From the NCBI GenBank assembly GCA_019635955.1, contig JAHBYL010000021.1, positions 1-42,745 on the forward strand: 42,745 nucleotides of DNA, written 5' to 3'. The notes under the pieces were generated by a model. That model had not been told where the DNA came from. It saw only the letters and a list, made by a program, of their open reading frames with translations, and made no database searches. Source of the stretch: Parvibaculum sp. GTDB lineage: Bacteria; Pseudomonadota; Alphaproteobacteria; Parvibaculales; Parvibaculaceae. Shown piece by piece: positions 3,990 through 27,249 of the stretch; the first letter of the stretch is position 1, and the number at the start of each line of letters is the position of its first letter. The translations under genes and the position numbers were made by a program.

Positions 3990-5207
3990 TTGAGCCTGAG
4001 CAAACCAAACACGTTGAGAAGCGGCCCTGACGAGCGCGGGCGGTTCGGCATTTTCGGCGGGCGCTTCGTCGCCGAGACGCTGATGCCGCTGGTGCTCGAT
4101 CTCGAAAAGGCCTATGCGGCGGCGAAGGCCGATCCCGCCTTCCAGGCCGAGATCGACTTCATGCAGCGCGACTATGTCGGCCGGCCGAGCCCGCTCTATC
4201 TCGCCGAGCGGCTTACCGAACATTTCGGTGGTGCCAAGGTTTATCTGAAACGCGACGAGCTGAACCATACGGGCAGCCACAAGATCAACAACTGCCTCGG
4301 GCAGATCCTGCTTGCGCGGCGCATGGGCAAGACGCGCATCATCGCGGAGACGGGCGCCGGCCAGCATGGCGTGGCGACGGCGACGGTTTGCGCGCGCTTC
4401 GGCCTGCCCTGCGTCATCTATATGGGCGCGACCGATATAGAGCGGCAGAAGCCCAATGTCTTCCGCATGAAGCTGCTGGGCGCCGAAGTTATCCCCGTTA
4501 CGTCCGGCACGGGTACACTCAAGGACGCGATGAACGAGGCGCTGCGCGACTGGGTGACGAATGTCGAAAACACCTATTACCTGATCGGCACCGTCGCGGG
4601 CCCGCATCCCTATCCTGCCATGGTGCGCGACTTCCAGTCCGTCATCGGCAACGAGACGAAGGTGCAGATGATGGAACGCGAAGGACGGCTGCCGGATTCG
4701 ATCGTCGCCTGTATCGGCGGCGGCTCGAATGCGATGGGCCTCTTCCATCCCTTCCTCGACGACACGTCCGTGAAAATCTACGGCGTGGAAGCGGCCGGCA
4801 AGGGCATCGAGACGGGCGAGCATTGCGCCTCGCTCAAGGGCGGCACGCCCGGCGTGCTTCACGGCAACCGCACCTATCTGCTGCAGGACGATGACGGGCA
4901 GATCAAGGACGGGCATTCGATTTCGGCGGGGCTCGACTATCCGGGCATCGGGCCGGAACATGCCTGGCTCCATGAAACGGGCCGTGCGGAATATGTTTCC
5001 GCGACGGACAAGGAAGCACTCGAAGCCTTTCAGCTCTGCTCGAAGCTCGAGGGCATCATCCCCGCGCTCGAACCGGCACATGCGCTCGCCTTCGTGTCGA
5101 AGATCGCGCCGAAGCTGCCGAAGGATCACCTGATGGTGATGAACATGTGCGGGCGCGGCGACAAGGACGTGTTCTCCGTCGCCCACTATCTGGGGGTGAA
5201 GCTGTGA
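3990..5207 (+). CDS. trpB: tryptophan synthase beta chain
   Basis: The PLP-dependent subunit that condenses indole with serine; it forms an alpha2-beta2 complex with TrpA and receives indole through a tunnel. The 405 residues match the normal length. The PLP Schiff-base lysine is Lys98 in H-T-G-S-H-K-I-N-N, and the phosphate cradle G-G-G-S-N-A-M-G is present. The start is a TTG with an AGAGAG purine stretch just upstream; a downstream start would cut into the conserved N-terminal G-R-F-G-x-F-G-G-R-F segment. The stop overlaps the trpA start (GTGA), consistent with equal production of the two subunits. Confidence 0.96.
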
Positions 5208-6043
5208 CCACGCGGCTCGACAGGCGCTTCACGAAGCTGAAAGCGGAAGGCCGCGCCGCCTTCGTGACCTTCATCACAGCCGGCGACCCAGATTTCGATA
5301 CCTCGTTCGAGGTGTTGAAGGGTCTGCCCGCGGCGGGTGCCGATGTGATCGAACTCGGCATGCCTTTCACCGATCCGATGGCCGACGGGCCGGCGATCCA
5401 GGCCTCGTCGCAGCGCGCTCTCCGGAACGGCGCGACGATGAAGAAGACGCTCGAACTGGTCCGCCGCTTCCGCGAAGGCGACAATGAAACGCCGATCGTG
5501 CTGATGGGTTACTACAACCCAATCTATCATATGGGCGTCGACACGTTCCTCACGCTAGCCTGCGAGGCGGGCGTGGACGGGCTCATCGTCGTCGACCTGC
5601 CGCCGGAAGAAGACGACGAGCTTTGCGAACCGGCGATGCGGGCGGGACTCAACTTCATTCGCCTTGCGACGCCGACGACCGACGACCGGCGCCTGCCGGC
5701 CGTTCTCGCGAACACATCGGGCTTCGTCTATTACGTCTCGATCACCGGCATTACGGGCTCGGCGAGCCCGGAGGCACGCAATGTCGCCGAGGCCGTGGCG
5801 CGCATCAAGCGGCACACGCCGCTCCCCGTTGCGGTCGGCTTCGGCATCAAGACACCGGCGCAGGCGGCCGATATCGCCCGCACGGCGGATGGCGCGGTTG
5901 TGGGCTCGGCGATCGTCGATGCGATCTCAAAGGAACTCGACAGCAATGGCAAGGCGAAGCCCGGCGCCGCGGAACGCGTGCTCGGCTTTGTGCGCATGCT
6001 TGCGGATGGCGTCCACAAGGCGCGCGCGGCAGCGGCGGAATAA
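5204..6043 (+). CDS. trpA: tryptophan synthase alpha chain
   Basis: Cleaves indole-3-glycerol phosphate and passes indole to TrpB. The 279-residue barrel shows both catalytic acids: Glu50 in V-I-E-L-G-M-P-F and Asp61 in D-P-M-A-D-G-P. The substrate loop S-I-T-G-I-T-G and the phosphate loop G-F-G-I-K-T are intact. The frame is open upstream inside trpB, but the GTG at 5204 overlaps the trpB stop by four bases and gives the normal length. It is followed 12 bases later by accD. Confidence 0.96.
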
Positions 6044-20131: not shown

Positions 20132-20180
20132 TTCTGGCTTTTCCAATTGCGCTTTCTTAGCAAGATGGGGAGTCATGATC

Positions 20181-21023
20181 ATGTCAATATCCGCTGAATA
20201 CTACGATGAACACGAGGTCGTCGCTCGTGGGCTCGGAAAGTGGTCTGATGTTGACATTCCAAAAGCGGGATGGAGTAGCGAACGTGTTTTTGACCTAGGC
20301 AAAGGCACCTATCGCACCTGCGAAATGTGCGAAACAGTTCAAATTCGTTTTGTGCATGTGATGGTACATAAAATCGGCCTTCGACTAGAGGCAGGATGTA
20401 TATGTGCGGGCCACATGGCCGAGGACATCGTTGGAGCCCGCGCCCGCGATGACGGCATTCAACGTGCTGCCAACCGGGTTTCCCGGAGAGCTGCTGCACT
20501 AGACAAAGCCCGCAGACAACTCGAACGAATTAAGCGCAGCACAAACTCGCTCTCAGAGACGCAGGAATCCACGTCGACTCTGGAACGACTAAGACGGTTG
20601 GCTATCCGTCGATGTGATGCTGCGAAGGCAGATGCGCTTCGCCACGATTGCTATGCTTCTGAAGTCGCTCAGTATCATATTTTCTTGCGCGATATAGATG
20701 CGGCGATCACCGCTCTGAACGAACAGGTCACGTCAACCCTGAGAGCACTGCATCAGGCAAAATTGGAAGAAGATATAAATTCTCCAAAGTGGCGGCGCAC
20801 AGACAGCGGATTCGGCTACACGTCCATTGATGGAGATCGGGCACAGGTTTTTTCGATACGCGGACAATATCACGCAATGTACAAGCTGAAAGGTGCAGAC
20901 AAACCAGTTTGGTCGCAGCGTAAATTTAGAAGCGCCGACGAGGCGCAAGAAATAGTTTTGGCGGTAATTGGTCAGCAATTGAGGAAGGCGGGTCGTTTAC
21001 CAAAAAGGCGAGACAGTAAATGA
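20181..21023 (+). CDS. orphan protein with Cys/His-rich N-terminus and coiled coil
   Basis: A 280-residue protein of unknown function. The N-terminal third carries a metal-site-like set of residues: Cys47, Cys50, His59, His63, Cys73, Cys75 and His78 (pattern C-E-M-C ... C-I-C-A-G-H-M). I recall this arrangement from uncharacterised proteins of genomic islands and plasmids, but cannot name the family. Residues of about 95-190 look like a charged coiled coil with many Arg, Glu and Ala. The C-terminal part contains W-S-Q-R-K-F-R-S-A-D-E-A-Q. Base composition differs: three 60-base lines counted by hand (20581, 20641, 20881) hold 33, 26 and 30 G/C, whereas line 19261 holds 42. ATA and TTA codons occur. 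GGGGAG at 20167-20172 suits the ATG at 20181 (8-base spacing) better than that at 20175. Confidence 0.75.
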   Translation: MSISAEYYDEHEVVARGLGKWSDVDIPKAGWSSERVFDLGKGTYRTCEMCETVQIRFVHVMVHKIGLRLEAGCICAGHMAEDIVGARARDDGIQRAANRVSRRAAALDKARRQLERIKRSTNSLSETQESTSTLERLRRLAIRRCDAAKADALRHDCYASEVAQYHIFLRDIDAAITALNEQVTSTLRALHQAKLEEDINSPKWRRTDSGFGYTSIDGDRAQVFSIRGQYHAMYKLKGADKPVWSQRKFRSADEAQEIVLAVIGQQLRKAGRLPKRRDSK

Positions 21024-21623: not shown

Positions 21624-22484
21624 TCAGGCGGAGGGCGGAACCACCAGCACGTCGCAGGTGATGTTCCGCAGCACGGCGTCGGCGACGCTGCCGAGGAGGA
21701 GCCGTTCGACGGCGTTGAGGCCACGGGCGCCGATGACGACAAGGTCTGCGGGGAGGGCATCGACCCACTGCGCGATCGCCGTGCAGGCATCTGTATCCAC
21801 GACCGCCACCTTGTCGGGCCGGCGGCCGAGGCGCGCTTCCGGCATCTCGACGGAGACGGCGCTCATGAGCTTCGATACATCCGTCTCCACCTGCTTCGCA
21901 ACGCTGTCGGCATCAAGACCGACATATTGCATCTGCGCCTTGGCGACATTCCGGTAGCTGTGCACCAGACAGAGGGGCAGATTATCGAGAAGCCCGAGCG
22001 CGCGGGCCGCATCGACCGCGTGGCGCGAGCCTTCCGAAAAATCGATACCGATCACCGCGCCCTTGTGCGGGCCCGCGGCTGCGGCCGATACCATGAGCAC
22101 CGGCTTGCCGCCCGTTCTGATCACGCGTTCGGCAGTCGTGCCGGTGAAGATATCGCGAAGGGCCTGTCTGCGATGCGCGCCGAGCACGACGAGATCGGCC
22201 GCTTCACGCGCCGCCGCATCGGCGATCGCCACGAAGGGATCGCCCCGCACGACAAGCGGGCGGGCGCGCGGCTGCAGGGCTTCCGGCAGGGCGCGACACA
22301 TGGCACCGAGGCGTTCCTCAGCGAGATTGACAAAGGTCGCGACATCGGAGGCCGGCTGATCGTCGTCCACAACATGGAGCAGAACGAGAGCAGCCTCGAA
22401 ACGGGTGGCAAGCTCCACCGCGCGTGCGAGCGCGACATCGGAACGGGCCGAGAAATCGGTGGCGAAAAGAATTGTCCGGATCAT
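21624..22484 (-). CDS. tandem-domain universal stress protein
   Basis: A 286-residue cytoplasmic protein made of two UspA domains (about 1-140 and 141-286). Both show the nucleotide motif: G-A-H-R-R-Q-A-L ... G-T-T-A-E-R-V in the first and G-A-R-G-L-N-A-V ... G-S-V-A-D-A-V in the second, close to the G-x2-G-x9-G-S/T ATP-binding consensus in the second domain only. Start chosen at M-I-R-T-I-L-F-A-T-D-F, with TAGGAGAGG about 8 bases upstream. It is divergent from the DUF1538 genes across a 119-base gap. A stress or envelope role with the neighbouring membrane proteins is inferred. Confidence 0.88.
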   Translation of the reverse strand: MIRTILFATDFSARSDVALARAVELATRFEAALVLLHVVDDDQPASDVATFVNLAEERLGAMCRALPEALQPRARPLVVRGDPFVAIADAAAREAADLVVLGAHRRQALRDIFTGTTAERVIRTGGKPVLMVSAAAAGPHKGAVIGIDFSEGSRHAVDAARALGLLDNLPLCLVHSYRNVAKAQMQYVGLDADSVAKQVETDVSKLMSAVSVEMPEARLGRRPDKVAVVDTDACTAIAQWVDALPADLVVIGARGLNAVERLLLGSVADAVLRNITCDVLVVPPSA

Positions 22485-22603
22485 GCCCGCGCCTCTCCTA
22501 ACCCGTAAATTTCGGACATCCGCGCAATTGGATGTAAACTGAATTTCTCCCATTGCGCATCCCTGTGCAACCGCCCCTTCCGGAGAAACAAGCGATCCAG
22601 CCT

Positions 22604-23338
22604 ATGGCCGCCGAACTCAGCAATATTCTCAGGGGAACGAGCGAGGCGCTGCGCGACATATTGCCCATTGTGGCGATTATCGCCGCTTTCCAGATTCTTG
22701 TGATCGGGGAGCCGATGGCGGCGTTCGGGACGAAGCTTACCGGGCTCGGCCTGATCGCGCTCGGACTTGCGCTTCTGCTTCGCGGTATTGCGCTCGTGTT
22801 GCTGCCTGCCGGGCAGGGAATGGCGGTGGACCTCGCGCGGCGGGGCAAGCTCGCCCTGCTTCTTGCTTTCGCTTTTGCGCTTGGCTTCGGCAGCACGGTG
22901 GCGGAGCCTGCTCTCTTCGCCGTTGCGGCGGAGGCCGGGCGGGCCGCCTCTCTCGAGGGGCTGATCGGCTCGAGCGCGGAAGCGCAGGAGGCCTTCGCAT
23001 CGTCCCTGCGATATGGCATTGCGGCGGGCGTCGGCCTTGGCATCGCCTTCGGCGCGTTGCGCATCGTTCTGGGCTGGCCGGTGACGCCTGTCATTCTCGG
23101 CGGATATGGCGTGGCGGCCATTCTCGCGCTGATCGGCGCCTCGCCTCTCTCAGCGCTCGCGCTCGACGCGGGAACGGCCGCCACATCGGTGCTGAACATT
23201 CCGCTCATCATGGCGCTCGGCATCGGGCTTGCCTCGACCATTGGCGGGCGCACGCCTCTCGTGGACGGCTTCGGGCTGGTGGCGCTTGCGAGCCTGATGC
23301 CGATGATCGTCATCATGGCGAGCGAGCTGTTGCTATGA
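22604..23338 (+). CDS. DUF1538 membrane protein, first subunit
   Basis: A polytopic inner-membrane protein of the DUF1538 family with 244 residues from the ATG at 22604. Conserved family motifs are G-F-G-S-T-V-A-E-P-A-L (with a membrane-embedded Glu), D-A-G-T-A-A-T-S, and G-G-R-T-P-L-V-D-G-F-G-L-V. Seven or so hydrophobic segments are visible. A DUF1538 pair named UmpAB has been reported as a two-component Na+(Li+,K+)/H+ antiporter in Halomonas; transport here is inferred from that. An in-frame TTG at 22553 would add 17 residues but lacks a ribosome site; GGAGAA at 22582 lies rather far from the ATG. The stop overlaps the next start (ATGA). Confidence 0.82.
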   Translation: MAAELSNILRGTSEALRDILPIVAIIAAFQILVIGEPMAAFGTKLTGLGLIALGLALLLRGIALVLLPAGQGMAVDLARRGKLALLLAFAFALGFGSTVAEPALFAVAAEAGRAASLEGLIGSSAEAQEAFASSLRYGIAAGVGLGIAFGALRIVLGWPVTPVILGGYGVAAILALIGASPLSALALDAGTAATSVLNIPLIMALGIGLASTIGGRTPLVDGFGLVALASLMPMIVIMASELLL

Positions 23339-24108
23339 TGGCGAACCTCGCAGCGGATATTTTGAACGCGCTCGGCCTGGTCCTGATCGATCTCGCGGCT
23401 ATCGCGCTGACGCTCGGGCTCTATTTCGCCGTCTTTGTCCGCCGCCTGCCCGTCGCGCCCGGCCCTCTTGTTCTTGGCAGCATCTACATCATCGCCGGAC
23501 TTACGCTGCTGCGGACCGGGCTCGATATATCGCTCATACCCGCCGGGCTGGAAATTGCCTCGCGTCTCGCCGGGGCGATGCGCGACGGCGCGAAGGGCGC
23601 GGGGCTCACCCATCTCATGCTTTTTGCCGGGCTTGCCGGATTTGCAGTAGCGCTTATCGAACCGGCGCTGACCATCATGGCGCGGCGGGCGGAGACCGCA
23701 TCGGGCGGCGCCATTCCCGAACTGCCGTTTCGCTTCGTCGTTGCATCCGGCGTCGGCGCCGGGCTTGCACTCGGCGTGCTTCGCATCCATTCAGGCCTTG
23801 CCTTCGACATTTTCTTTGCCGCACTGGTCGTGCTCATTGCGCTTCTTTCATGGGGCGCGCCGAAGCTCATCAGGCCTATCGCCTATGACAGCGGCGCGGT
23901 GGCGACATCCGTCGTCGTGGTGCCGCTCGTCGCTGCAATCGGCATCGGGATCGCATCGGCTTTGCCGGATCGCTCGGCGCTTGCCGATGGCTTCGGCATG
24001 GTAACCGGCGCCTTGCTGCTGCCGGTCTGCACCGTTCTGCTTTACGCGAGAATACAGGCATGGCGGGCCGCACAGCCGCAACAGGGAGGAACCCGTTATG
24101 GAGTTTAA
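23335..24108 (+). CDS. DUF1538 membrane protein, second subunit
   Basis: A second DUF1538 protein of 257 residues, distantly similar to its neighbour: it repeats the pattern of a membrane-embedded Glu (F-A-V-A-L-I-E-P-A-L), a D-S-G-A-V-A-T-S segment and A-L-A-D-G-F-G-M-V in the last part. Two non-identical subunits in tandem match the reported UmpAB arrangement. The start ATG overlaps the stop of the first gene; a second ATG follows at once. Its 3' end overlaps the start of the PII-like gene by 11 bases. The C-terminal tail (R-A-A-Q-P-Q-Q) is hydrophilic. Confidence 0.82.
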   Translation: MMANLAADILNALGLVLIDLAAIALTLGLYFAVFVRRLPVAPGPLVLGSIYIIAGLTLLRTGLDISLIPAGLEIASRLAGAMRDGAKGAGLTHLMLFAGLAGFAVALIEPALTIMARRAETASGGAIPELPFRFVVASGVGAGLALGVLRIHSGLAFDIFFAALVVLIALLSWGAPKLIRPIAYDSGAVATSVVVVPLVAAIGIGIASALPDRSALADGFGMVTGALLLPVCTVLLYARIQAWRAAQPQQGGTRYGV

Positions 24109-24445
24109 GTTGATCATGGCGATCGTCACCGATGATCGCTCCGAACGCGTGGTGCAAGCGGCACGCAAGGCCGGCGCGACAGGCGTCACCATCATTTCCG
24201 GTGCGCGCGGCGAAGGGCTCGTGCCGCACAAGACATTTCTCGGGCTTGACCTTCTCGGTCCGTGCGACGCTGTGGTGATCGTCGCCGAGCATCAGTTCGC
24301 GGCGGCGATCATGGAAGCCATTGCCGTGAGTGGGGAGTTCGACACATCGCCGGGCGCCGGAATCGCGATTCAGGTTCCCATCGAAGCGGCGGCCGGGCTT
24401 CAATCGCAGATCAGGGCGCTGCGGGACATGAAAGAGAAGAATTGA
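24098..24445 (+). CDS. PII-like regulatory protein
   Basis: A 115-residue protein with the PII/ferredoxin-like fold: a first strand F-K-L-I-M-A-I-V, a helix with E-R-V-V-Q-A-A-R-K-A-G-A-T-G-V-T, and a last strand ahead of G-I-A-I-Q-V-P-I-E. The T-loop region between strands two and three is short (A-R-G-E-G-L-V-P-H-K-T-F-L-G) and lacks the Tyr51 that is uridylylated in GlnB/GlnK, so it is not a classic nitrogen PII. GGGAGGA sits 7 bases before the ATG. It overlaps the second DUF1538 gene, which suggests it senses a nucleotide or ion state and gates that transporter; this is inference. Confidence 0.8.
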   Translation: MEFKLIMAIVTDDRSERVVQAARKAGATGVTIISGARGEGLVPHKTFLGLDLLGPCDAVVIVAEHQFAAAIMEAIAVSGEFDTSPGAGIAIQVPIEAAAGLQSQIRALRDMKEKN

Positions 24446-24450
24446 TGAAG

Positions 24451-24496
24451 AAATGCAAATGGCCGGTTCAAGCCCGGCCATGACGCATTTTGTTTT
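24451..24496. terminator. bidirectional terminator between PII-like gene and Mo-dehydrogenase
   Basis: ATGGCCGG pairs with CCGGCCAT around a short loop, and an outer AAATGC/GCATTT pair with a T-rich tail extends the structure. It lies between the convergent PII-like gene and the dehydrogenase large subunit. Confidence 0.8.
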
Positions 24497-24502
24497 CCTC
24501 TC

Positions 24503-26767
24503 CTAGTCCGCGGCCTGGGCGAACTGGTCGGAGACCGGCTTCAGGTCGTGCAGCTTGAAGGGGAGCTGGCGGATGCGCGTGCCGGTAGCGGCGTAGACCG
24601 CGTTTGCGACGGCGGCGGAGATGACGGGCGTCGAGGGCTCGCCGAGGCCGCCCAGCGCCTCCCCGCTGTCGATGAAGTGGACATCGATTGCCGGACATTC
24701 GGCGAGCTTCACCATTTCGTAGTCGGTGAAGTTCGTCTGGGCGACGCCGCCGCCTTCGATGCCGATCTCGCCATAGAGCGCGGCGGTGAGGCCATAGACG
24801 ATGCCGCTTTCGACCTGCTGCGCGGCGGTGTCCGGATGGATCACCTCGCCGCAATCGACGGCGGCGACGACGCGATGAACGCGGGGACTGCCGCCCTCGA
24901 TCGAGACTTCGGCGACTTCCGCGACGATGGAGCCGAAGCTCTGCTGCACGGCGATCCCATGGACATGGCCCTGCGGCAGCGGGCGGCCCCAGCCGGCCTT
25001 TTCGGCGGCGAGTTTCAGCACGGCGGCGTGGCGCGGCTTGTCCTTGAGCATGGCGAGGCGGAATTCGAGCGGGTCGTGCCCGCCGCGATGTGCGAGCTCG
25101 TCGATGAAGCTTTCCGAGAAGAAAGTGTGCTGCGTATGCGCGACCGAGCGCCAAGGGCCGCGCGGCACCGGGTTTTCAATGTCGATATAGCGGATCGACT
25201 GATGTGGCACGGCGTAAGGAATATGCGGCGCCTCGCCCGGCTCGTCCTTGTGGATGTAGCGGTTCTCGTAAGCGACGGGGAAGCCATCCGCATCGACCAC
25301 GGCGCGGATGCGCGCGGTGACGGCCGGGCGATAGGCATCGTGCTGGATATCGTCTTCGCGGGTGTAGATGAGCTTCACCGGCGCATCGACTTCCCTTGCG
25401 ATCATGGCGGCCCAGTCGATCTCGCTCGGGAAATCGAAGAAGCCGGCGCGGATCGGGATGCGCCGCCCGAAGCCGCCGCCAAGCAGAAGCGGATGGAGCG
25501 TGACATTGTCGAAGGGAATGCCCGTTACATCGGCAATGCGGGCGCGGGCGCCGAGCGCATCCTGACAGCCGACCCAGACATCGGCCTTGCCATCGCGGAT
25601 CCAGACCGTGCAGTTCACCGGCTCCATGCAGGCATGGGCGAGATAGGGCACGCGATATTCGGCGCTGACGATTTCCGCGCCGGGCGCGGCGAAGGCGGTC
25701 GCCGCATCGCCGACTTCCTTGTCCGTCTCGCTCTGGCCCGCATCGAGAGCGGCATCATGCGCGGCGAAGATCGTGTCCGAGGTGATGTTTGCCTTGTCGC
25801 CCGCGTCGAACTCGACGTCGAGGGCGAGTGCCGCTTCTTTCGCGCGCCAGTAATTGTCGGCGATGACGGCGATGCCGGCGGGGAACTCGACGACTTTCTT
25901 CACGCCGCGGCGGGCGAGAATATCGCTTGCGTCATAGGGCAGGATCTTCGAGCCGAAGACGGGGGCGAGGCGGACCGCCGCATAGAGCATGCCGGGCGCC
26001 TGCGCATCGACGCCATAGACGGCGCTGCCATCGACCTTGCCGGGAATATCGAAGCGGGGGCGGGCCGTGCCGATGATCTTCCATTCGGCTTTGGACTTGA
26101 GCGCGGGGCGCGCGGAGGGCGAATAGTTCGCGGCTTCGGCGGCAAGCTCGCCATAGGTCGCGCTTTCGCCGTTCGGGCCGGTGACCATGCTCATCGATGC
26201 CAAGCAATCGGATGCGGCGACGCCCCACCGGGCGGCGGCGGCTTTCACCAGCATTTCCTTCGCGGCAGCGCCCGTTACGCGCATGCCATGCTGGCCGGTA
26301 TAGCGCACCGCCATGGAGCCGCCGGTGATCTGCATGTTCATGAATTTCGCAACCTGGTGCCAGGCGGCGGCGGTGAGCCCCTTCAGCATGGGCGGCACGT
26401 CCTCGTTTGCGAGGAAGCGGTTGCCGAGCGCTTCGTTCGCGAAAGCGCGTTCGGCGGGAGCCTGCTCCGCAGTCACGAGCGACCAGTCGGCGTCGAGTTC
26501 TTCCGCCGCCATCATGGCGAGTGCGGTGATGGTTCCCTGCCCCATGTCGGAATGCGGCACATAGACGGTGACGCGATTATCCGGCGCGATCTTGAGCCAG
26601 GCGGTGACGAAACGCTCGCCCTCGCCTGCCGCGGCAGCTTCCGCCTGTTCGCGGCGCGAGGGGCCGGAGGCCGCGAAGCCGATGCCGAGGAGAAGGCCGC
26701 CGCCGGCGGCGGCACCACCCGCAATGAGGAACTGGCGGCGCGTGGGCTTCTTGATTTCGATTGCCAT
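24503..26767 (-). CDS. molybdopterin-dependent dehydrogenase large subunit (isoquinoline 1-oxidoreductase beta-like)
   Basis: The 754-residue catalytic subunit of a xanthine-dehydrogenase-family enzyme. The N-terminus is a twin-arginine signal (R10-R11-Q-F-L followed by a Gly/Ala-rich hydrophobic stretch), so the folded holoenzyme is sent to the periplasm or membrane. The body carries the moco-binding segments L-G-G-G-F-G-R-R and G-x-G-E-P-S-T-P, the latter with the presumed catalytic Glu710. The single-polypeptide large subunit with a Tat signal and no separate FAD subunit is typical of isoquinoline 1-oxidoreductase and related aldehyde dehydrogenases; electrons then leave via cytochromes. 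The actual substrate cannot be told. The start M-A-I-E-I-K-K follows the small subunit by 14 bases. Confidence 0.88.
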   Translation of the reverse strand: MAIEIKKPTRRQFLIAGGAAAGGGLLLGIGFAASGPSRREQAEAAAAGEGERFVTAWLKIAPDNRVTVYVPHSDMGQGTITALAMMAAEELDADWSLVTAEQAPAERAFANEALGNRFLANEDVPPMLKGLTAAAWHQVAKFMNMQITGGSMAVRYTGQHGMRVTGAAAKEMLVKAAAARWGVAASDCLASMSMVTGPNGESATYGELAAEAANYSPSARPALKSKAEWKIIGTARPRFDIPGKVDGSAVYGVDAQAPGMLYAAVRLAPVFGSKILPYDASDILARRGVKKVVEFPAGIAVIADNYWRAKEAALALDVEFDAGDKANITSDTIFAAHDAALDAGQSETDKEVGDAATAFAAPGAEIVSAEYRVPYLAHACMEPVNCTVWIRDGKADVWVGCQDALGARARIADVTGIPFDNVTLHPLLLGGGFGRRIPIRAGFFDFPSEIDWAAMIAREVDAPVKLIYTREDDIQHDAYRPAVTARIRAVVDADGFPVAYENRYIHKDEPGEAPHIPYAVPHQSIRYIDIENPVPRGPWRSVAHTQHTFFSESFIDELAHRGGHDPLEFRLAMLKDKPRHAAVLKLAAEKAGWGRPLPQGHVHGIAVQQSFGSIVAEVAEVSIEGGSPRVHRVVAAVDCGEVIHPDTAAQQVESGIVYGLTAALYGEIGIEGGGVAQTNFTDYEMVKLAECPAIDVHFIDSGEALGGLGEPSTPVISAAVANAVYAATGTRIRQLPFKLHDLKPVSDQFAQAAD

Positions 26768-26781
26768 GATGCTCTCTCCCC

Positions 26782-27249
26782 TCAGGCCGATGTCACGTCG
26801 CGGATGGCGGCACGGATGCGCGGATAGGTGCCGCAGCGGCAGATATTGGTGATCGCGGCGTCGATATCTTCGTCCGTTGGCTGAGGATTCTCTGCGAGCA
26901 GTGCCGAGACCGCCATCAGCATGCCGGACTGGCAGTAGCCGCATTGCGGCACCTGACGGGCGACCCAGGCGGCCTGCAATGCAGAAAGTTCGCCCTCGCC
27001 CGCGCCACGCGCGGCGGCAAGGCCTTCGATGGTGGTGATCTCCGCGCCATCGACCATTTCGACCGGCGTGACGCAGCTGCGCATCGCCATGCCATCGACA
27101 TGGACCGTGCAGGCGCCGCAGGCCGCGACGCCGCAGCCGAACTTGGTGCCGGTGAGGCCGATCTCGTCGCGCAGCGCCCAGAGGAGCGGCATTTCCGGCT
27201 CGACATCGAGCTCGTGGCGCTTGCCGTTGACAGTGAAGGAAATGGACAT
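26782..27249 (-). CDS. [2Fe-2S] small subunit of the Mo-dehydrogenase
   Basis: The 155-residue iron-sulphur partner of the large subunit. The plant-type cluster motif C-G-V-A-A-C-G-A-C plus a fourth Cys in R-S-C-V is followed by the four-helix domain with the second cluster motif C-G-Y-C-Q-S-G and C-R-C-G-T-Y. It lacks its own signal and would be co-exported with the large subunit by hitch-hiking on the Tat pathway. It is the first gene of a two-gene operon; a perfect palindrome lies 45 bases upstream. Confidence 0.92.
   Translation of the reverse strand: MSISFTVNGKRHELDVEPEMPLLWALRDEIGLTGTKFGCGVAACGACTVHVDGMAMRSCVTPVEMVDGAEITTIEGLAAARGAGEGELSALQAAWVARQVPQCGYCQSGMLMAVSALLAENPQPTDEDIDAAITNICRCGTYPRIRAAIRDVTSA

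Follow-up and report, generated by a model that had tools for sequence, protein, structure and literature searches.

In this study, we analysed a gene trio within a 42,745-nucleotide stretch of Parvibaculum sp. DNA, the whole of which is referred to here as the window. Three genes follow one another on the forward strand at positions 22604–24445. The first, umpA-like gene (DUF1538-1; 22604..23338) encodes 244 amino acids when read from its ATG, and its frame is open from a possible TTG start at 22553; the second, umpB-like gene (DUF1538-2; 23335..24108) encodes 257 amino acids and its start overlaps the stop of the umpA-like gene by 4 bases (ATGA); and the third (24098..24445) encodes a PII-like companion of 115 amino acids and overlaps the umpB-like gene by 11 bases. 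The initial annotation had pointed to both stop-to-start overlaps, and both are seen in the open reading frames. It had also described the products as two DUF1538 proteins and one PII-like protein, which is borne out by Pfam matches that all lie over the curated cut-offs: PF07556 matches the umpA-like protein at 5.3e-47 (160.3 bits) and the umpB-like protein at 2.1e-42 (145.3 bits; cut-off 22.6), and PF00543 matches the companion at 1.4e-8 (35.5 bits; cut-off 25). In the host genome (201 contigs), the two DUF1538 matches are the trio's own pair, and there are two PII matches besides the companion, one of them partial.

As had been noted before, a divergent Usp gene (21624..22484, reverse strand; two-domain product, PF00582 1.1e-46) precedes the trio; its likely start is a Met at 22484, which leaves about 120 bases between the Usp and trio starts. 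This intergenic region (22485..22603) is the presumed site of the trio promoter, as judged from the sequence. A promoter scan of 22300–24600 gave no sigma-70-like site within 22485..22603, and its sole sigma-70-like match lies on the reverse strand at 22704–22676. Of 187 loci, two have the Usp gene next to the trio, a same-genus relative (L192) and, weakly, L039, and on this count it was ruled out as a component of the system; it is a genus-level neighbour of the trio. Between the PII stop and a convergent oxidoreductase gene lies a terminator-like inverted repeat of 8 pairs (24459..24481), which the consensus scan lists on the reverse strand. Since four terminator-like sites were found in the scanned region when 2.5 were expected from shuffles, this repeat is not evidence of function. 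Further downstream, the window contains convergent molybdenum-cofactor oxidoreductase genes (24506–27249; MoCoBD and 2Fe-2S proteins), and at 20175–21023 there is a 282 amino acid open reading frame without a Pfam match over the curated cut-off.

Recurrence of the DUF1538–PII linkage

Among 398 genomes of the window's phylum, DUF1538 was detected in 126 (E<=0.001), with one or two DUF1538 loci per genome examined, and in 117 of the 126 a PII domain is encoded no more than 1 kb from DUF1538 on the same strand (median gap between the domains, 79 bases). Four of the nine genomes without an adjacent PII stop at a contig edge (G140, G238, G256, G268), so that 5 of 122 assessable genomes are without one (G104, G113, G136, G176, G265). 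A companion-PII profile matches elsewhere in the genome in four of these five, in G104, G136 and G176 on another contig away from DUF1538, and the same profile has no match anywhere in G265. One genome scored as linked, G141, also has a second DUF1538 pair without a PII (L129). The companion-PII profile, which was built from 21 companion PIIs and applied in the co-occurrence test at E<=1e-10 as opposed to E<=0.001 for DUF1538, matches 125 of the 398 genomes. Both domains are present in 120 genomes, DUF1538 only in 6, the PII only in 5 and neither in 267 (phi 0.94). The corresponding Fisher p of 4e-87 is inflated by the relatedness of the genomes, and we therefore place weight on the agreement itself, that is, on concordant presence or absence in 387 of 398 genomes.

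A search from the opposite direction, with the window PII in a species-genome collection, returned at least 27 loci, and DUF1538 lies beside the PII in 26 of the 27 listed; for one of these 26, L056, the matched PII is an additional copy and converges on a trio that is itself complete. The remaining locus, in Treponema lecithinolyticum (L060), holds a tandem PII gene at 4683–5309 in a genome in which no DUF1538 match was found. This PII-PII protein may be left over from a lost antiporter system, or it may have acquired a different target; judged by eye, the adjacent genes resemble luxS and a nucleosidase gene.

Outside the window's phylum, DUF1538 was detected in 27 of 149 genomes of the Spirochaetota, 67 of 199 of the Bacillota, 9 of 121 of the Chloroflexota and 3 of 119 of the Planctomycetota, and in 111 of 139 genomes of the order to which the locus L059 belongs. 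The loci inspected were chosen from the matches listed and are not a random sample: 20 regions from 18 of the 27 genomes for Spirochaetota, 30 regions from 29 of the 67 for Bacillota, 8 of 9 for Chloroflexota, 2 of 3 for Planctomycetota, and for the order of L059 a further 20 regions from 18 of the 111 genomes, 8 of which were chosen for long frames, so that fusion frequency is not estimable from them. PII adjoins DUF1538 in every one of these loci (20/20, 30/30, 8/8, 2/2 and 20/20, respectively), giving 80 of 80 sampled loci in four other phyla. Furthermore, nine plasmid records match DUF1538, and all five that were examined (NZ_CP044330.1, NZ_CP120363.1, NZ_CP094934.1, NZ_CP007453.1 and NZ_AP023416.1) annotate DUF1538 followed by a 'P-II family nitrogen regulator'. 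One of the examined plasmids with this cassette is conjugative and comes from Chelativorans; its first DUF1538 gene is annotated at only 273 bases.

A neighbourhood survey of this kind had been named beforehand, in the initial annotation, as a test that could refute its reading of the trio, and the outcome did not refute it. The linkage of DUF1538 and PII is near-universal in the sampled genomes of five phyla and on plasmids, natural fusions included, and this recurrence (117 of 126 genomes, 80 of 80 loci, and 26 of 27 when approached from the PII side) excludes a chance arrangement.

The window type of organization, two DUF1538 genes and one PII gene, accounts for 58 of 100 regions in the window's phylum and for 8 of 8 in Chloroflexota. 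A fused DUF1538-DUF1538 gene with two PIIs, either separate or joined as a PII-PII chain, is found in 20 of 100 regions of the window's phylum and, with tandem units counted separately, in 14 of 21 Spirochaetota units and 17 of 33 Bacillota units. Split DUF1538 genes with two PIIs also exist (6 Bacillota units), and thus DUF1538 fusion and PII doubling are not strictly tied. For the window's phylum we used the earlier of two tallies, as in the later one the profile had drifted and second PIIs of this phylum are undercounted (12 units of the 'D-D P' kind in the later tally, 5 in the earlier one); a second, diverged PII in L182 was seen by eye.

Two arrangements provide three PII domains per antiporter. 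In seven loci (L243–L249) these form a single PII-PII-PII chain, and in the three of seven that were inspected by eye a T-loop motif is clearly recognizable in the middle domain, and the two outer domains appear degenerate. In L059, L369 and L371–L375, a PII-PII chain accompanies a DUF1538-DUF1538 protein that continues in frame into a C-terminal PII; L370 and L376 have a complete fusion, and there the contig ends within the second chain. The DUF1538-DUF1538-PII fusion is thus present in nine spirochaete genomes (L059, L369–L376). The nine proteins are 56–100% identical and at most eight are clearly distinct, as L373 and L374 round to 100%. Two of the fusion loci lie on contigs of more than 3 Mb, which argues against an assembly artefact.

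Several further features of these loci were observed in passing. Some spirochaete DUF1538-DUF1538 proteins, among them those of L242–L248 and others with frames of 628–737 amino acids, are unusually long and lie beside two- or three-PII chains, and in several of these the DUF1538 domain matches span about 830–880 bases as opposed to 630–700. In L111, L122, L135 and L341, split-type and fused-type DUF1538 units occur near each other in one locus, the second unit of L122 being cut.

The DUF1538 subunits

The initial annotation noted that a DUF1538 pair has been reported as a two-subunit cation/H+ antiporter, and the basis of this assignment is one published pair. UmpAB of Halomonas zhaodongensis, the characterized DUF1538 pair, is described as a pH-dependent Na+(Li+,K+)/H+ antiporter, of which both subunits are needed for full function, co-precipitate as a heterodimer and have seven helices each (PMC5484666). 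The window pair resembles UmpAB in consisting of two homologous, overlapping DUF1538 genes, in matching the family profile and in its conserved charged residues. In contrast to the window trio, UmpAB was characterized without a PII, and this comparison is with the cloned Halomonas fragment; according to the published account the fragment holds no intact open reading frame after umpB, and the terms P-II, PII and 'nitrogen regulatory' have no occurrence in the main text of that paper (PMC5484666). The window pair also differs from UmpAB in being diverged and under the equivalog cut-offs. Against the NCBIfam models, the umpA-like protein scores higher with UmpA than with UmpB (211.8 and 131.9 bits), and the umpB-like protein higher with UmpB than with UmpA (125.9 and 111.7 bits); the equivalog cut-offs (NF041627/NF041628) are 490 and 500, and ten first-position relatives with an adjacent PII, at 352–390 bits, are likewise under the cut-off.

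A tree of 80 DUF1538 domains places those of first and second position in separate groups within each of three large lineages, and by our reading of this tree the fusion of the two subunits (A-B) arose at least three times. The umpB-like protein falls in a second-position clade of 13 rows (support 99/96) with an end branch of 2.26, and the nearest rows to the umpA-like protein, whose branch is 1.33, are first-position subunits, at an unresolved fork. Three charged residues, E97, R138 and D174 in the numbering of L059, do not vary in any of the 21 aligned rows, which include both window subunits. In the AlphaFold2 model of L059 (pLDDT 81.7, pTM 0.78), helices are interrupted close to the AEP and D-GG motifs, as judged by secondary structure. 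As the fused PII part of this model is of low confidence (pLDDT mostly <60), no docking claim is made. Our searches turned up no solved relative of DUF1538.

To describe charge bias, Lys and Arg were counted outside the helices of the L059 model in units with exactly two DUF1538 domains, leaving out incomplete domains. First-position N-tails are positive (mean 2.68 in split subunits, n=101; 3.06 in fused ones, n=71) and the C-tails of first-position split subunits are neutral (0.14), whereas in second position the N-tails average 0.63 (split, n=101) and 0.90 (fused, n=70) and the C-tails 3.99 and 3.97. The loop charges swap between positions too in most groups; in the window's phylum the swap is weak for split subunits in second position (53% as expected, 14% the other way round), as it is in spirochaetes (70% expected, 30% opposite), and the umpB-like protein of the window lacks the expected loop-charge bias, with +1 where a negative value was expected. 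These counts point to opposite membrane orientations of the two subunits across the family, although the indication is weak for the umpB-like protein of the window. Combined with the published seven helices per subunit, the opposite charge bias would give an antiparallel pair in which the second subunit ends in the cytoplasm, and this is the end to which some spirochaetes attach a PII. The words topology, antiparallel and inverted are absent from the text of PMC5484666.

The companion PII

The AlphaFold2 model of the window PII (pLDDT 88.2) has a PII fold. Foldseek returned 206 matches at E<=0.001, and the best 50 of the 206 are PII, GlnK, SbtB, CPII and PII-like proteins. In the structure comparison canonical rows are ahead by about 1 Z for the window PII, and for the fused PII, whose model is of low confidence, SbtB and CPII rows come first. 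A tree separates 73 DUF1538-associated PIIs from 13 other PIIs of six DUF1538-carrying genomes by a branch with support 100/99, obtained from few columns and with a bootstrap that had not settled; SbtB and CPII were not included, and the degenerate rows L247 P3 and L230 P1 were left out. The window PII falls within the DUF1538-associated clade.

Five positions, Q39, Y51, K90, R101 and R103, which we take to be the 2-oxoglutarate and ATP binding and uridylylation positions of canonical GlnB/GlnK, have lost their canonical residues: these are absent among the five commonest letters of the 21 companions, except for one Tyr at 51. Tyr51 is thus missing in 20 of 21, and position 101 is Gly in all 21. 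The canonical nucleotide-pocket glycines and threonine are retained. A canonical nitrogen-signalling PII of the GlnB/GlnK kind is ruled out by these residues together with the 100/99 split in the tree. From the residues kept and lost we would guess that the ligand is perhaps an adenyl nucleotide other than MgATP/2-oxoglutarate.

Some members of the clade lie away from DUF1538 (L323, L324, L326, L327, L329, L330 and L333–L336). In G104 and G136, which belong to one family, the companion-type PII (L323 and L324) adjoins a malic enzyme-phosphotransacetylase gene on a different contig from the DUF1538 pair. In the remaining eight loci, 7 of the 8 genomes of which also have DUF1538, the neighbours are ETF-QO (L329, L330), MutS (L327, L334) and SH3_3 (L326, L333, L335, L336) genes, and also Dus genes.

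Proposed PII control of the antiporter

We consider it probable that the trio encodes a PII-controlled cation/H+ antiporter of the UmpAB type, in line with the initial annotation, which had suggested a ligand-gated antiporter. The operon structure, the linkage, the co-occurrence, the fusions, the retained charged core and the opposite charge bias are the observed part of this reading, and our confidence is slightly lowered by the departure of the umpB-like protein from the orientation rule and by the position of the umpA-like protein at an unresolved fork. According to the proposed mechanism, the three genes would encode one regulated transport unit, in which the two DUF1538 proteins, in opposite orientations, would pair as a heterodimeric monovalent-cation/H+ antiporter. 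The dedicated PII-like protein would bind the cytoplasmic side of the antiporter and, as a trimer or covalent trimer, would set its activity by its ligand state, the ligand being a small molecule. In this way cation/H+ exchange may be coupled to energy or carbon status. That the window pair performs cation/H+ antiport would follow from the behaviour of UmpAB, and the fusions, together with AmtB-GlnK and SbtA-SbtB as analogous pairs, suggest that the PII would bind the antiporter directly; ligand-dependent switching is likewise proposed. As UmpAB is active in E. coli without a cognate PII, the PII would be a tuning or inhibitory partner and not an essential one that enables transport.

The AmtB-GlnK system resembles the trio in that a PII gene is linked to a membrane transporter gene, and in Clo1313_2260 of Clostridium thermocellum AmtB and PII domains have been described in one protein (PMC4676874). 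AmtB and GlnK are described as trimers that meet 1:1 (PMC10710835), whereas UmpAB is reported to be a heterodimer, and unlike GlnK the companion PIIs miss the canonical ATP/2-oxoglutarate residues. As a PII target, a heterodimeric antiporter would depart from a homotrimeric build, except if three heterodimers came together in a trimer. A PII-like protein also lies beside a transporter in SbtA-SbtB, as outlined in PMC10710835, and PII-NG has been placed beside CzcABC (Sant'Anna 2009, as cited in PMC7726332). The latter case is similar to the trio in that a non-canonical PII adjoins a proton/cation antiporter, and CzcABC, a metal pump, differs from the DUF1538 pair. For Thioalkalivibrio, PMC9062515 gives GlnK as the P-II regulator, together with Amt.

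The initial annotation knew of no characterized example of the trio, and the literature that we covered on DUF1538, UmpAB, PII-antiporter links, PII superfamily neighbourhoods and tandem or fused PII, which mostly leaves subscription papers outside, likewise yields no report of the partnership; the passages on DUF1538 or UmpAB in PMC13255231, PMC10030654 and PMC12093952 make no link to PII. The link may well be visible, implicitly, in gene-neighbourhood databases. An antiporter family known as two-component from one paper is nearly always three-component in our sample and probably under metabolic control. The near-constant PII partner, sometimes fused, suggests that cells switch the pump according to their metabolic state.

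It is rather unlikely that the DUF1538 pair moves another substrate, be it an ion, bicarbonate or a metal, with the antiport of the Halomonas pair as a side activity and the PII gating the other flux. Such a role would be compatible with PII control, and it gains from the fact that antiport is known from one study of one pair, that no solved DUF1538 relative was found and that PII-like proteins are described beside bicarbonate and metal transporters (SbtA-SbtB, PMC10710835; PII-NG/CzcABC, PMC7726332). However, measurements in everted vesicles showed antiport of Na+, Li+ and K+ against H+ (PMC5484666), and UmpAB homologues have been tied, in cable bacteria and by genome comparison, to salinity adaptation (PMC10030654, PMC12093952).

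It also seems unlikely to us that the PII is a co-transcribed regulator which acts elsewhere, on an enzyme or a transcription factor, and does not bind the antiporter. The clade members found away from DUF1538, beside malic enzyme-phosphotransacetylase, ETF-QO, MutS or SH3_3 genes, would be in agreement with this; the in-frame fusion of a PII to the antiporter C-terminus in nine genomes speaks against it, and linkage in five phyla and on plasmids suits a physical partner better.

The tight linkage and the fusions would also be expected if the PII had a structural role in the transporter or in its assembly and were no ligand-operated switch. The loss of triphosphate-binding residues could mean that ligand binding has been lost, and the outer domains look degenerate in the 3 of 7 three-PII chains inspected. 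We regard this as quite improbable, however, as UmpAB is reported to work in E. coli without a PII (PMC5484666) and as the nucleotide-pocket glycines and threonine are retained. Finally, operons can preserve gene order, but neutral hitchhiking of an old operon without functional meaning, already disfavoured, is hardly credible when the order has, in different phyla, outlasted at least three A-B fusions, PII duplications and a PII-antiporter fusion, and when G104, G136 and G176 have a companion PII that is not adjacent and lies on another contig.

Returning to the PII-controlled antiporter, we put forward as a tentative extension that DUF1538 proteins might generally form three-component machines, in which an antiparallel heterodimeric cation/H+ antiporter is placed under one PII trimer. 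Some spirochaetes encode three PII domains per antiporter, which could assemble as a single-chain (PII-PII-PII) or a mixed (PII-PII plus fused PII) heterotrimer, with a T-loop motif not in all domains. Units with two PII domains per antiporter are commoner, and by themselves these do not fit a count of three. The tandem and triple chains are natural covalent PII assemblies, and with them the stoichiometry of PII to transporter becomes directly testable. In one further locus, L381, a single PII-PII gene lies between two antiporter genes.
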